Source: Prosthecobacter gellanilyticus (GTDB lineage: Bacteria; Verrucomicrobiota; Verrucomicrobiia; Verrucomicrobiales; Verrucomicrobiaceae). Taken from it: a DNA stretch of 64,000 nucleotides. The DNA lies in assembly GCF_007992435.1 (NCBI RefSeq), contig NZ_BKAG01000013.1, positions 62,001 to 126,000 of the forward strand, in the 5' to 3' direction. Under the pieces are notes generated by a model. It worked only from the letters and a program-made list of their open reading frames with translations. It searched no databases and was not told where the DNA came from. This document shows, in pieces, positions 2,724 through 26,465 of the stretch (the first letter of the stretch is position 1; every line of letters starts with the position of its first letter). A program made the translations under genes and the position numbers.

Positions 2724-5700
2724 ATGAAACGTCTCGTTCTTCTCTCCTTTCTTGCCTTTGCCGGCCTCGCTCCTGCCCAGGATGGCTTCAAACCGATCTT
2801 CAATGGCAAGGACCTCTCGGGATGGGATGGGAATCCGGAACTTTGGAAGGTGGAGAATGGTGAGATCGTGGGCACCACCACGGGACCGGAACAACTGGCC
2901 TACAACCAGTTCCTGATCTGGCGCGGCGGGAAGGTGAAGAATTTTGAGCTCAAGGCGAAGATCCGCCAGAAGGGCAACAACACGGGCATCCAATACCGCA
3001 GCAGCGAGAATGCCGACAAGAAGTGGTCCATCCGGGGCTACCAGTGTGACATCCACCCGAACGCGCCTTATCGCGCGATGATGTATGAGGAGGGTGGTCG
3101 CGGCATCGTCTCGCAGAATGGCCAGAGCGTGGTCATCGACCCCGCAGGTGTGAAATGGCTCGCGGGTGAGCATGATCCCGTCGAGGTCGACATTGCCGAA
3201 TGGCATGAGTACACGGTCACCGCGAAGGGTAACCACCTCGTGCATCAGATCGATGGCAAGACGACAATGGAGCTCACCGATTTCGAGGAGGCCAAGCGTG
3301 CGTTCGAAGGTTTGATTGCCTTCCAGATTCATCGCGGCCCGGCCATGGAGGTCCACATCAAGGATGTCGTCCTCAAAGAGCTTCCCGAGGGTGGCGTGAC
3401 ATCCTTTGAAAAATCGGCGATCCCGAGTGATGCGCAGATCATCGAGGCCAAGGCGCCTGCGAAGGGCAAAGGCAAGGCGAAGGCTGATGCCAAGAAAGCG
3501 GCGGCACCTGCTCCAGCTCCGTCCCCTGCCCCTGATCCAGCGAAGGACAAGGCTGCGGAACGGGCCAAGAAGAAGGCTGCACGTCCGCAAGCGGTGGGGC
3601 CTGCCATTGGCGCGAATGTGGCGACGCCGGTGAGCAACATCAAGACGCTCAAGGATTTCAAAGTGGAGCTGATCTACAGCGTGCCGGGTGGTGAGCAGGG
3701 TTCCTGGGTGAACCTGACCACGGATGATCAGGGCCGCATCTATGCGAGCGACCAGTATGGCATGCTGTATCGCTTCAAGGCTCCTGCGGCCGGCCAGACG
3801 CTGAGCGCGGCAGACATTGAGAAGGTGCCCGCGGAAATCCGTGGTGTGAACGGCATGCTCTTTGCCTTCGGCGCGCTGTATGTCGGCGTGAACGACTATG
3901 AGAAGAAGATCCCGAGCGGGGTGTATCGCATCAGCGACAGCAATGGCGACGACATGCCAGACAAGGTGGAGATGCTGCGTGAGTTCGACGCGGGCAGCGA
4001 CCACGGCGTGCATGCCATTTTGAAGACTCCGGATGGCAAGGGGCTTTACCTCATCAGCGGCAACAATGCGGTACTGAAGGAAGGCCCGAAGGTGGGAACG
4101 CTGGACAGCTCCCCGGTCGCGAAGCTGTGGGGTGATGATCATCTGCTGCCGCGCATGCCGGACGGTCGCGGTCACAACCGCCATGTGATGGCGCCTGGCG
4201 GCATCGTGTATCGCTTCTCGCCGGATGGAAAGCAGTTCGAGATCTTTGCCTCGGGCTTCCGTAACATCTTCGACGGTGGTGTGAACCGCGATGGTGAGCT
4301 GTTTGTTTACGACGCGGACATGGAGTATGATTTCAACACTTCATGGTATCGCCCGACCCGCATCAACCATGTCGTCAGCGGTGGTGAGTACGGCTGGCGC
4401 AATGGTGCGGGCAAGTACCCGGAATTCTACTTCGACAACCTGCCTGCGACGCTGAACATCGGCCCTGGCTCACCGACTGGCACCACTTTTGGTTATGGCG
4501 CGAAGTTCCCGGCGAAGTATCAGGACGCCTTCTATGTGCTCGACTGGAGCTGGGGCAAAATCTATGCGGTGCATCTGAAGCCCGAAGGCAGCACCTACAC
4601 GGCCACGAAGGAAGAGTTCGTCACGGGTGGTCCGTTGCCAGTCAGTGATGCGATCATCGGCAAGGATGGCGCGATGTATTTCACCATTGGTGGACGTCGT
4701 GTGCAGAGCGGACTGTATCGGGTGACTTATGTGGGGAAAGAGAGTACCTCTCCGATTTCTTTGGAACCAAGCAGTTCGACGAGAACAGAACTGCGAGATG
4801 TGCGTGCAAGCCTGGAAGCTTTCCATGGCAAACAGGATCCGAAGGCGGTCGCCACGGCCTGGCCGTCTCTTAGCAGCAAGGACCGTTATATTCGTGCTGC
4901 GGCACGCACGGCGCTGGAGCATCAGCCGCTGGCTGAGTGGCAGGACAAGGCGCTGAATGAAACGAATGTCACGGCTCAGCTTGAGGCGCTGCTGGCACTG
5001 ACTCGACGGACCGCTGTGTGCCCGACCCATAGGCCGGATGGGACTTACAGGACGGATGAAAAGATGCGTGATTCTATCTGGGCAGCGCTGCTGAAGCATG
5101 ACTTTGCGAAGCTGACTCCTGAGCAGAAGCTGGCTTATGTGCGGCTGACGGAGATCGTGCTGCATCGCTTTGAGAATCCGGATGAGGCGACGGTGGGCAA
5201 GATCATCGCGAAGCTCGATCCGGCGTATCCGGCGGATAACTTTGAGTTGAACTGGCTGCTGACGGAGACGCTGGCGTATCTGCAGGCTCCGAATGCGGCG
5301 GAGAAAGGCATGGCGCTGATCGCCGCCGCTGAGAGTCAGGAACCGCAGATCGAGTATGCGCGCAGCCTGCGCTTCCTGAAGACGGGTTGGACACCGGAGC
5401 TTCGCAAGCAACAGCTCGAGTTCTTCCTGAAGGCCGCGAACTACAAGGGTGGCAGCAGCTTCGCCATCTTCATCGATTTCATCCGCAAGGACTCGCTCTC
5501 TACCTTCACGCCGGAAGAAAATGCGCAGTTCGCCGAACTCATCGCCAAGAAGCCTGAGGTGAAATCTGCGATTGAGAACGTGGGCGCGATGTTTGTGGGA
5601 CGCACGCCGACGATGTGGACGCTGGATGAGCTCAGCAAAGCTGCGGAGACAGGCCTGAAGGGACGGAGCTTTGAGAACGGTCGCAAGATGTTCAGTGCCT

Positions 5701-23076: not shown

Positions 23077-23511
23077 CTATTTGCTCGATGGCGGCTTCTC
23101 TTGATTCCACTGGATGCCGGCGTGCTGGACTTCGCGGTAGGGGAGGAGCCAGATGAGGGACTCGTCGTAGAGGTCGACGACTTGGATGCGGTTGCCCCAG
23201 GGGTCGCGGAAGTCGCAGCGGAACCCTTGGATGAGTTTGAGGCCGTATTTACTGGTGAGCTTGTCGCGGACTTCGGCGAGCTGGGACTCGTCGCGCACCA
23301 TGATGCCAAAGTGGCGGTCGGAGGTGTCGGGCTGCATGCCTTCGCGCTCGAACATGGCGAGGAACTGGTGCTCGCCGAGCTTGAAGAAGGCATCGCCTTC
23401 GCCCTCATCGAGCTTCTTGAGGCCGAAGACGTCTTCGTAGAAGGACACGGCCTTTTCGATATCGCCGACCTCAATGGCGACGTGGTTGCAACCGTAGACT
23501 TGGATGCTCAT
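23077..23511 (-). CDS. VOC family protein (glyoxalase/dioxygenase fold)
   Basis: 144 residues with the paired beta-alpha-beta-beta-beta modules of the vicinal oxygen chelate family: GCNHVAIEVGDIEKAVSFYE at the start (metal ligand His), FLAMFE, then RHFGIMVRDESQLAEVRDKL and RDPWGNRIQVVDLYDE at the end with the typical DPxGN turn. The family includes glyoxalase I, dioxygenases and antibiotic-binding proteins; the substrate cannot be predicted. Monocistronic or led by this gene, diverging from the TPR gene across a long repeat-rich spacer. Confidence 0.8.
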   Translation of the reverse strand: MSIQVYGCNHVAIEVGDIEKAVSFYEDVFGLKKLDEGEGDAFFKLGEHQFLAMFEREGMQPDTSDRHFGIMVRDESQLAEVRDKLTSKYGLKLIQGFRCDFRDPWGNRIQVVDLYDESLIWLLPYREVQHAGIQWNQEKPPSSK

Positions 23512-23727
23512 GGCTGGAGGGGAATCGCGGCTGCGATGGCCTGTGGTTGGCTGGGTTTGCGGTGTCCAAAGGGTCCACTTGGGTCACTTGAGGGTGGGGA
23601 TGGGTGTGGTGGAGATTGAGGGGCTATGAGTGCGCTTTTTTACAGGAGAATTGGACAGACCTTCGCTGAGGCTACGGACTGCATAGTGGGGGAGTATTGG
23701 CCTGCGGAAGGCGGGACGGCGGGAGCC

Positions 23728-23777
23728 GTTTACGGTCGTTTACAGTGGTTGACGGTTGTTTACGATGGTTTCAGAAG
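23728..23777. repeat. Five tandem 10-bp units (GTTTACnnTn)
   Basis: Units GTTTACGGTC, GTTTACAGTG, GTTGACGGTT, GTTTACGATG and GTTTCAGAAG are contiguous and start every 10 bp from 23728. The last unit is degenerate. Confidence 0.8.
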
Positions 23778-23785
23778 AAGGGGCG

Positions 23786-24037
23786 ATCCGAGTCAATCCG
23801 ACTGGATCCGACCTGCTTGGGATGGGAGAGGTGGATGGAGGTGGCGTGGGCGTGGGGCTCATCACACGGAGTGTGATGGCTACTTTGCTGACGTGCTTCG
23901 CGGCGGGGGCTGGGGGCGAATCCGAGTTAATCCGACCAGATCCGACATTTGGCTGGAGCTGGAGGGCGAGAGGTGGGGCCAGCTTGCGGAGAAAGTTGCC
24001 ACTTGGAGGCGATCCAGCCTAATCCGACCAGATCCAG
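23786..24037. repeat. Three clusters of 10-bp-phased ATCCGA units
   Basis: ATCCGA starts at 23786, 23796, 23806 in cluster 1; at 23920, 23930, 23940 in cluster 2; and as ATCCAG/ATCCGA/ATCCAG at 24012, 24022, 24032 in cluster 3. All nine units have the same orientation; the clusters are 134 and 92 bp apart. The gene downstream starts about 205 bp after the last unit. Confidence 0.8.
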
Positions 24038-24245
24038 GTCAAAAAGGGCGAGGGGAACTTGAGCGAATCTGGAGGTGGGTGGTCGGAGTGTGGCCCCGGC
24101 GATTTGACGGGCTGGCAGGGGCTGGGTGCGGCCTCGGGACTGGCTTGGAGCGGGGCCTTGACGGCATCTTTTGTTCGCGAGGGACCTGAGATTTATGACA
24201 GCACTATTTACAAAAACTAAGCTTCCCGTTAAATTCCGCCTCCCC

Positions 24246-26465
24246 ATGAAGTTTTGCCCCCCCCTGTTTCTGGCTCTCGCTTTGCTGGTGCCCGCGAATG
24301 ATTCGCGTGCACAATTCTCCGGCACGGACGAGGCGGCGGACCTGTTTTTCCAAGGCTATGTGCTGAAGAATGACGCTGAAAAGATGGAGCAGGAGGGCAA
24401 TCTCCAGGGTGCGCTGTCACTGTATCAGCAGATGAAGCAGAGCTTTGATGATCTGGCTGTGACGCACCCGCAGTGGCAGCCTGGGATGATGGGTAATCGC
24501 CGTGCGCTGACGGAGCAGGCTATTTCCCGGGTGAAGGCTCGGCTGGCGCAGCCGCAGGCGGCTCCGGCACCGAATGCGGCACCCGCAGGCGCGGCTCCAG
24601 CGGCCGCGGCTCCGACGACTCTTTTTGGCATGCCGAGCGGTGGTGCCCCGGTAGCGGCTCCAGCAGTCCCCTCCCCTGCCCCGGCGCCAGCTTTGGGCGG
24701 TGGTGTAGCGATGGCTCCGGCAGCGAATGGTTCCATGCCGAGCTTGGCCGAGGTGCTGTCCCAATGGGAGGCAGCGTATCGCCAGCGCATGACGGCTTTG
24801 GAAAGCCAGAACAGCACGCAGCAGGTGGACCTGCAGAAGTGGCAGCAGTGGTATCAGTGGGCGTCCGGTGAGATCACGACCTCCCGCGACAAGCAGCAAA
24901 AGCTGGAAGGCCAGATGACGTCCAAGGATGAGGCGATCGCGGTGATGAAGATGGAAGTGGCCGCGGGTCGCGCCTCCGAGCAGCAGCTCGACGCTTTGAC
25001 GAAGGAGAAGATCGCCATCGAAGTGGAATACAAAAAGGCGGCGCAGCGCCTCTCTGCCGCTGAAAGTGCTGCGAAGGAAGCCTCGCAGAAGCTGGCGGAG
25101 GCCTCCCAGCGCATCGTCGCGGTGGAAGAAGAGAGGAACAAGATCCTGGCGGAACGTGATGCAGCCGTGAAAGAGCGCGACGCGAAGTCCATGGCGCTGG
25201 TCGAGGCTGAAAAGAAGGCTGACAGCGCCACCAAGGAGCGCGATGCGCTGAGCGCGCAGGTGCTGGGCTACAAGACGGAGGTGGAAGACCTGCGGAAGAA
25301 GAAGACGGCGATCCTGCCAAACGATGTGAAGAAGATCGTGGCGGATTATGAGCACCTGAAGAAGGACTTTGATGAGGCGCAGAAGCAGATCGTGACGCTG
25401 AAGGCGGACTCGATGCGCAAGGATGAGGAAGTGGTGAAGCTGCGCGGCCAGCTGACCACGCTGCAGAGCGAGATGGCAACGCTGCGCCAGCAGAGCGCGG
25501 GCTATCAAACCCAGGTGGCAGACCTGACGCTGCAACTGAAGAAGATCCAGGACAGCGATCCCACGGGCATGACGCCGGAACTGGCGAAGGAAAACACACT
25601 ACTGCGTGAGATCATCATGCGCCAACTGCGCAGCCAGTACCGCCAGCAACAGGCGAAGGACTTGGTGATCTCCGATCTGAAAAAGATGGAAGGCGTGTCT
25701 AACAAGATGCTGAACCAGGTGGAGGATCTGACGCAGAACCGCCTGACACTGACACCGGATGAAGAAAAGCTTTTCACCGACCCGGCCGTGCGTGAACTGC
25801 TGGGCAGCGGTGGCATCCAGGGCACGATGATCGCCCGCGTGTCCAAGCCCGGCGATGCGAATGAGAATCCTGAAGCGACGAAGAACCCTGCGCAGGCGCT
25901 GCTGGACAAGGCCAATGAGGCCTTCTCCGCGAAGCGTTTCCCGGACGCTGCGGCGCTGTATGAAGATGCGCTGCGCGCAGATCCGAAGAACACGACGGCG
26001 CTGGTGGGCCTGGGTTATGCCCGTGAGCGCGAGCAGAAGTATGCGGAAGCTGAGACGGCGCTGAAGAAGTGCCTGGTCTATGAGCCTGAGAATGAGACGG
26101 CGGCCTTTCACCTGGGCGTGACCTACTTTAAACAGGACCGCTGGAATGATGCGATGGGCTCCTTTGAGAAGAGCCTGACGATCAACCCGAAGAATGCGCG
26201 CGGCCGCCACTACCTGGGCATCATTTCCACAAAGCTGAACTTCATCGAGCGCGCGGAGCGTGAGTTCAAGACGGCGCTGGCGATCGACCCGAGCTATGGT
26301 GAGGCGCACTTTAACCTGGCGGTGCTGTATGCCACCTGGGACCCGCCGCAGTGGGACAAGGCCCGCGCTGAGTATGACGAGGCTCTGAAGAAGGGGGTGA
26401 CCCCGGACGAGAACCTGGAAAAGCTGCTGAAGGGCAGCGCGGAGAAGTCCGTCTCGGCACGCTAA
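24246..26465 (+). CDS. Secreted coiled-coil protein with C-terminal TPR repeats
   Basis: 739 residues from the ATG at 24246, chosen because it directly starts a signal peptide (about 1-23, ANDSRAQF). After a helical segment (ALSLYQQMKQSFDDL) comes an Ala/Pro-rich linker (about 110-160), a long coiled coil (about 180-470) of heptad-like Lys/Glu/Ala repeats, and a TPR domain (about 560-720) with four units such as ANEAFSAKRFPDAAALYEDA and YVEPENETAAFHLGVTYFK-like spacing. Probably a periplasmic scaffold. It stands alone behind a repeat-rich 5' region; no catalytic motif seen. Confidence 0.7.
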   Translation: MKFCPPLFLALALLVPANDSRAQFSGTDEAADLFFQGYVLKNDAEKMEQEGNLQGALSLYQQMKQSFDDLAVTHPQWQPGMMGNRRALTEQAISRVKARLAQPQAAPAPNAAPAGAAPAAAAPTTLFGMPSGGAPVAAPAVPSPAPAPALGGGVAMAPAANGSMPSLAEVLSQWEAAYRQRMTALESQNSTQQVDLQKWQQWYQWASGEITTSRDKQQKLEGQMTSKDEAIAVMKMEVAAGRASEQQLDALTKEKIAIEVEYKKAAQRLSAAESAAKEASQKLAEASQRIVAVEEERNKILAERDAAVKERDAKSMALVEAEKKADSATKERDALSAQVLGYKTEVEDLRKKKTAILPNDVKKIVADYEHLKKDFDEAQKQIVTLKADSMRKDEEVVKLRGQLTTLQSEMATLRQQSAGYQTQVADLTLQLKKIQDSDPTGMTPELAKENTLLREIIMRQLRSQYRQQQAKDLVISDLKKMEGVSNKMLNQVEDLTQNRLTLTPDEEKLFTDPAVRELLGSGGIQGTMIARVSKPGDANENPEATKNPAQALLDKANEAFSAKRFPDAAALYEDALRADPKNTTALVGLGYAREREQKYAEAETALKKCLVYEPENETAAFHLGVTYFKQDRWNDAMGSFEKSLTINPKNARGRHYLGIISTKLNFIERAEREFKTALAIDPSYGEAHFNLAVLYATWDPPQWDKARAEYDEALKKGVTPDENLEKLLKGSAEKSVSAR

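Follow-up and report, generated by a model that had tools for sequence, protein, structure and literature searches.

Cyanobacterial STRR heptamer arrays are short tandem arrays with a period of 7 that occupy intergenic DNA and use lineage-specific words. MITEs such as RUP, BOX, ERIC and NEMIS are non-coding, dispersed elements with inverted ends that lie near gene ends. REP, BIME and RAYT-associated GTAG repeats are short, multi-copy, intergenic, palindromic and clustered, and GTAG REPs have been reported in the PVC superphylum (PMC3733652). Among DNA-binding proteins, BldC assembles head to tail into filaments in which each protomer accounts for one turn of DNA, and the RdfS/Xis proteins are similar to it (PMC11963761); most regulators of the OmpR/PhoB type recognise direct repeats (PMC3960148). 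The box arrays of these proteins consist of direct repeats about one turn apart, one word being contacted per turn, and the known cases are a few promoters or att sites.

The locus described here lies in a 64,000-nucleotide stretch of the Prosthecobacter gellanilyticus genome (hereafter the window) and resembles each of these systems in part. Like the STRR arrays, its repeats are intergenic, short and tandem with lineage-specific words; however, the STRR period of 7 is not helical, and STRR arrays do not form inverted arms. The general features of REP and BIME repeats are shared as well, and REP-like hairpins lie between the arrays, but the arms here are built of 10-bp phased words, the palindromes span ~50-120 bp and no RAYT adjoins them. 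The GTAG tag is absent from the array element, and a likeness to GTAG REPs is confined to the separate hairpins found between arrays. In common with MITEs, the elements are dispersed and non-coding, lie near gene ends and have inverted termini, with inverted arrays detected in 33 of 48 congeners. They differ in having arms of modular 10-bp units, whose words are conserved while the spacers drift. No clear target duplication was recognizable by eye, and no parent transposase was found among the Y1_Tnp genes. The arrays also consist of head-to-tail words one turn apart, as do BldC-type and OmpR/PhoB operators, but here they belong to a dispersed repeat family with a putative reader. No earlier description of 10-bp arrays in Verrucomicrobia was found in the literature searched, in which subscription journals were thinly covered.

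A composite repeat that is dispersed through intergenic DNA is present in the window as one copy; its key modules are 10-bp-phased arrays of 6-bp words, GTTKRC-N4 and ATCCGA-N4 (Table 1). The initial annotation had counted fourteen units, five of a GTTTACnnTn type and three sets of three ATCCGA words. Positions and array numbers were correct, as were the exact 10-bp period of every array, the common orientation of the ATCCGA units and the distances of 134 and 92 bp between the starts of the ATCCGA clusters; all units of both types lie on the plus strand. The words themselves are exact in only 10 of the 14 units: the five-unit array keeps its period but includes GTTGAC as unit 3 and GTTTCA as unit 5, and the third ATCCGA cluster, also of period 10, is degenerate, with one exact word in three. 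In its words, this third array stands midway between the ATCCGA array and a related one of ATCCAG/ATCAAG words that other clusters carry. The head module of the window has diverged from the strict core seen elsewhere. The reverse strand of the CATCACACGGAGTGTGATGGCTAC hairpin starts with GTAGCC, which corresponds to the GTAG tag of REPs. Rfam covariance models gave no match to positions 23500-24300 up to an E-value of 1, and a search for phage similarity gave no match.

Table 1. Features of the composite repeat and its surroundings, in window coordinates
Feature	Position	Strand	Remarks
Glyoxalase-superfamily gene	23077..23511	-	divergent neighbour
Head module of composite repeat (GTGTCCAAAGGGTCCRCTTGGGTCAC...GGGGCTATGAGTGCGCTTTTTTACAGGAGA)	23560..23658	+	also found 5' of the GTTTAC array in many further clusters
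GTTKAC-N4 array, five units, period 10	23728..23777	+	single arm of a genus-wide palindromic element; unit starts 23728 (GTTTAC), 23738 (GTTTAC), 23748 (GTTGAC), 23758 (GTTTAC), 23768 (GTTTCA)
ATCCGA-N4 array, first, three exact units, period 10	23786..23815	+	starts 23786/23796/23806
REP-like hairpin CATCACACGGAGTGTGATGGCTAC	23860..23883	+	10 copies in 57 stretches of the same genome, all intergenic
ATCCGA-N4 array, second, three exact units	23920..23949	+	starts 23920/23930/23940
Degenerate copy of AACTTTCGGAGAAAGTTGGCCACTT hairpin	23979..24004	+	from comparison with copies in other clusters
Third array, ATCCAG/ATCCGA/ATCCAG	24012..24041	+	starts 24012/24022/24032
Proximal leader of the TPR gene (CTATTTACAAA...TTCCGCCTCCCCATG)	24203..24248	+	present in congeners without arrays; outside the repeat
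TPR/coiled-coil protein gene, 739 aa	24246..26465	+	downstream neighbour

Across the genome (7.65 Mb in 137 contigs), the search for ATCCGA-N4-ATCCGA-N4-ATCCGA returned 40 exact triples against none for the reversed control, far above chance, and GTTKRC triples numbered 133 against a control of 0. Among the first 100 ATCCGA pairs listed at distances of up to 36 bp, 73 were separated by 10 bp and two by 20 bp, with the remainder thinly spread; the distances of GTTTAC pairs followed the same pattern. A word-blind scan of 440 kb around the arrays at lags 4-25 gave 38 segments at lag 20 and 27 at lag 10, followed by 18 at lag 7; since this DNA was picked for containing arrays, the scan shows the period and not the density. 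The phase preference put forward for the window is a genome-wide property, period 10 and its multiple 20 being the most enriched lags.

The intergenic position of array pairs, heads and hairpin cores was scored in 57 stretches fetched from the same genome. None of 225 array pairs fell in a predicted gene, while ~77% of that DNA is coding; genes were called with a simple codon-usage model, so that small genes may be missed. On both counts, phase and intergenic position, the checks set out in the initial annotation came out in its favour. In many of the 57 stretches, read side by side, the modules follow one order: head, GTTTAC array, ATCCGA array, REP-like hairpin and ATCCAG/ATCAAG array. The head reads GTGTCCAAAGGGTCCGCTTGGG ... 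TTTTTTCACAGGAGATTTGGAG in these mosaics and is followed by GGGAGCC and a GTTTAC array ending in GGTTTC; its two cores occur in 23 and 12 copies in the 57 stretches, all of them intergenic. The ATCCGA array ends in CCTG, after which come one of several REP-like hairpins and the third 10-bp array of ATCCAG/ATCAAG words. Several composites (e.g., L029, L030 and L035) also enclose a short repeat, GCCTACGGAACACACGGAAGACGCGGAAAGGG, with an internal periodicity of 9 bp. At one locus (L071, G000:C51:15400-27600), two composite clusters ~3.3 kb apart occur in opposite orientation, with their GTTTAC sides inward and pointing away from each other. Within the ATCCGA arrays, the information content is 1.3-2.0 bits at word positions, a figure inflated by selection of the set on those words, compared with 0.5-1.65 in spacers and mostly below 0.5 in flanks. 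The consensus of the units is position-specific; the spacers vary from one unit to the next, whereas the words are retained.

Within the composite, conservation is higher for the GTTKRC array than for the remainder. This array represents a repeat family of a Verrucomicrobiaceae-like bacterial family and takes one of two forms, a palindrome made up of two inverted arrays or a single arm. The strict inverted GTTKRC pattern detected palindromes in 33 of the 48 congeners, with controls of 0; the window copy corresponds to one arm, and the absence of strict palindromes from 15 congeners marks the system as dispensable. Among 388 genomes of the phylum, GTTKRC triples were restricted to this bacterial family: P. 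gellanilyticus has 133, a genome from another genus has 65 and two congeners have 4 and 6, with none elsewhere. In one genome of family f20 (G130), the reversed control of the GTTKRC pattern gave 17 matches and the pattern itself 0, possibly reflecting another 10-bp array family.

When one palindrome per locus was considered, 28 of 30 lay between codirectional genes and two between divergent genes, most of them within ~20 bp of both flanking genes and mostly filling the gap. Relative to the codirectional share of gaps longer than 100 bp in the 57 stretches (86/167), this has a binomial probability of ~1e-6, but a codirectional arrangement is commoner among short gaps than among long ones, and the sites open to insertion may account for some of the excess. 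Single GTTKRC arms, in this and other genomes, occupy both divergent and codirectional gaps. An inverted GTTKAC pair at another locus (L023, ~4017-4110) lies between codirectional genes right before a prepilin-like N-terminus, and the in-frame reading through the pair looks open. The junction of dapB and folK, whose products DapB and HPPK (FolK) were confirmed by Pfam in P. gellanilyticus, carries a palindrome or partial array in several congeners; in others, only some 7-20 bp of bare gap separate the two genes. The element has been gained or lost at this fixed gene junction. Clearly orthologous copies are common to several of the carriers, which indicates that some copies are old and vertically inherited. 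In one congener (L266 in G023), the element in the dapB-folK gap includes a pure 10-bp run, in which some eight ACTGCAAACC units follow one another in tandem with hardly any change.

The contrast between words and spacers was examined in orthologous and in inverted copies. Four orthologous copies differ at 10 of 180 word sites and 17 of 96 spacer sites compared; this comparison is free of word-selection bias, and within so small a set the words appear to change more slowly than the spacers. In 46 palindromes, the word subtype at position 5 (A or G, giving GTTKAC or GTTKGC) agreed between arms at 0.705, compared with 0.507 when shuffled (permutation p < 0.001). Each palindrome keeps one subtype, and units on one arm share it too. 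At spacer positions 7, 8 and 10 of the same palindromes, cis agreement between arms was no better than shuffled. Compensatory spacer changes between arms showed no cis excess in a second set of 26 (p 0.24); both permutation tests treat elements as independent though some are orthologous, and obvious duplicates were dropped only in the 26-element set. The sharing of a subtype along one arm goes beyond the needs of base pairing, and gene conversion would homogenise the spacers along with the words. Sequence-specific recognition of the words would be the simplest account of the contrast.

Sequence-specific, helically phased recognition by an oligomerising protein would fit these data better than would slippage, curvature or a hairpin formed in RNA. 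A composite repeat whose words are read by a putative phased, oligomerising DNA-binding protein is our leading interpretation, and we regard its probability as evenly balanced. A sequence-specific protein would dock along a single DNA face, at each helical turn, and would oligomerise head to tail, like BldC, RdfS, Xis or the winged-helix proteins of the OmpR/PhoB type. The elements may have spread as small non-autonomous repeats along with REP hairpins, and the palindrome at operon junctions could keep cistrons apart as a spacer made of nucleoprotein or RNA. With respect to the cooperative binding on one helix face suggested by the initial annotation, the same-face phasing is borne out and the binding itself would follow from this interpretation.

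The position of the palindromes between the stop and start codons of codirectional genes makes RNA hairpins of the REP type a serious rival for this part of the family, although on balance we consider them a rather unlikely explanation. According to this alternative, the palindromes are REP/BIME-like RNA transcribed between cistrons, the long hairpin protects the upstream message or insulates translation, and the 10-bp regularity is a relic of arm building. Single-strand folds of -44 to -56 kcal/mol were obtained for five of six examples folded from the P. gellanilyticus genome. Duplex energies in the 26 palindromes revealed a weak cis excess, the outer 30-nt arms pairing slightly better in cis (-28.65 versus -26.15 in trans, p 0.027), but the inner arms did not (p 0.16). 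The lack of spacer covariation between arms speaks against this alternative. Furthermore, single-arm GTTKRC and ATCCGA arrays, as in the window, have no partner arm and are left unexplained by such hairpins, and the 11-bp A-form helix provides no reason for exact 10-bp units.

Less probable still, and unlikely in our estimation, is that a small non-autonomous transposon has the arms as its terminal inverted repeats, with the phased words serving as transposase sites for mobility only. Inverted arms, multi-copy dispersal, gain or loss at dapB-folK and the restriction of GTTKRC to one bacterial family would all be expected of such an element, and long terminal inverted repeats associated with tyrosine transposases are known (PMC3733652). 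On the other hand, no recurrent transposase was found beside the arrays of the P. gellanilyticus genome, as judged from the starts of flanking proteins, and no clear target-site duplication was seen by eye at the examined palindromes. The words also appear conserved in orthologous copies, a small sample, unlike those of a dead MITE. Linkage to RAYTs was rejected for Y1_Tnp, the one transposase family tested, as none of its 19 genes in this genome has arrays within 1.5 kb. These 19 matches to Y1_Tnp, the REP-associated tyrosine transposase (L242-L260), are a possible source of the REP-like hairpins between arrays.

Plain tandem-repeat slippage combined with intrinsic curvature, and no reader protein, is very improbable. 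Pure 10-bp tandem runs do exist in relatives (ACTGCAAACC in one congener, GTCCGACCCC and GTCAAAACCT in other families), but in the arrays studied here spacers differ between units while words stay fixed, and one period is common to two unrelated words whose units have a position-specific consensus. The earlier argument that the arrays are more than simple slippage is upheld by these observations. The curvature proposed alongside it is possible for the GTTTAC array, in which AA/TT steps are helically phased (p 0.001), but is not supported for the ATCCGA arrays, where these steps are unphased.

The framing of the initial annotation, in which the array would be an operator dedicated to the TPR gene, can hardly be maintained: although most ATCCGA-bearing clusters are oriented towards a 3' gene that is codirectional with them (31 of 40, with 9 otherwise, in one of several tests tabulated together), the window copy is one of at least 57 clusters, the same composite precedes dozens of unrelated and often housekeeping genes (functions judged from protein starts), its distance to the gene varies widely (mostly ~100 to 600 bp) and no arrays occur in up to 1 kb of DNA upstream of the TPR-gene orthologues of 24 congeners. 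The CTATTTACAAA leader is kept in two array-free congeners read by eye (L221 and L223).

Outside P. gellanilyticus, the ATCCGA module has a patchy distribution. ATCCRA triples in the 388-genome sample comprised 52 in this genome and one other true match, the remaining matches being ATCCA microsatellites. Among the matches listed, several ATCCGA arrays belong to verrucomicrobial MAGs (AM-2014_bin-0333, LacPavin MAG_67_8 and MAG_BO64), in which they continue, without loss of phase, as ATCCAA or ATCAAG units or sit downstream of a GTCAAA array; most of the non-verrucomicrobial matches among those listed look like chance. A four-unit RTCMRR pattern, too strict for the P. gellanilyticus genome, brought to light arrays of GTCCGA and GTCAGA words in a different family of the phylum. 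Two genomes of family f36 (G241 and G259; L189, L197, L210, L190, L207 and L211) are rich in 10-bp arrays of GTCCGACCCC and GTCAGACCCT, which seem to lie clear of long reading frames; GTCAAAACCT arrays occur in one Akkermansia-like genome. Read on the other strand, the GTTKRC unit becomes GYMAAC-NANN, and all words thus share a loose RTCMRN shape. Uniting the array words under this shape is speculative.

The broadest interpretation, which we put forward tentatively and hold to be doubtful, is that Verrucomicrobiota possess phylum-wide but patchy 10-bp-phased arrays with lineage-drifting words (GYMAAC, ATCCGA, ATCCAA, ATCAAG, GTCAAA, GTCCGA and GTCAGA), read by a co-evolving putative head-to-tail protein that would form filaments at operon junctions and promoters. 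If true, this would constitute a new form of chromosome-wide organisation or insulation. The fixed words and drifting spacers make the binding hypothesis directly testable, and phased word arrays, located in dozens of related species between the stop and start codons of codirectional genes, provide a ready-made set of sites with which to look for the reader protein. Such work would show either that phased arrays are kept genome-wide as insulators or architectural sites, or that a selfish element has a new kind of end.
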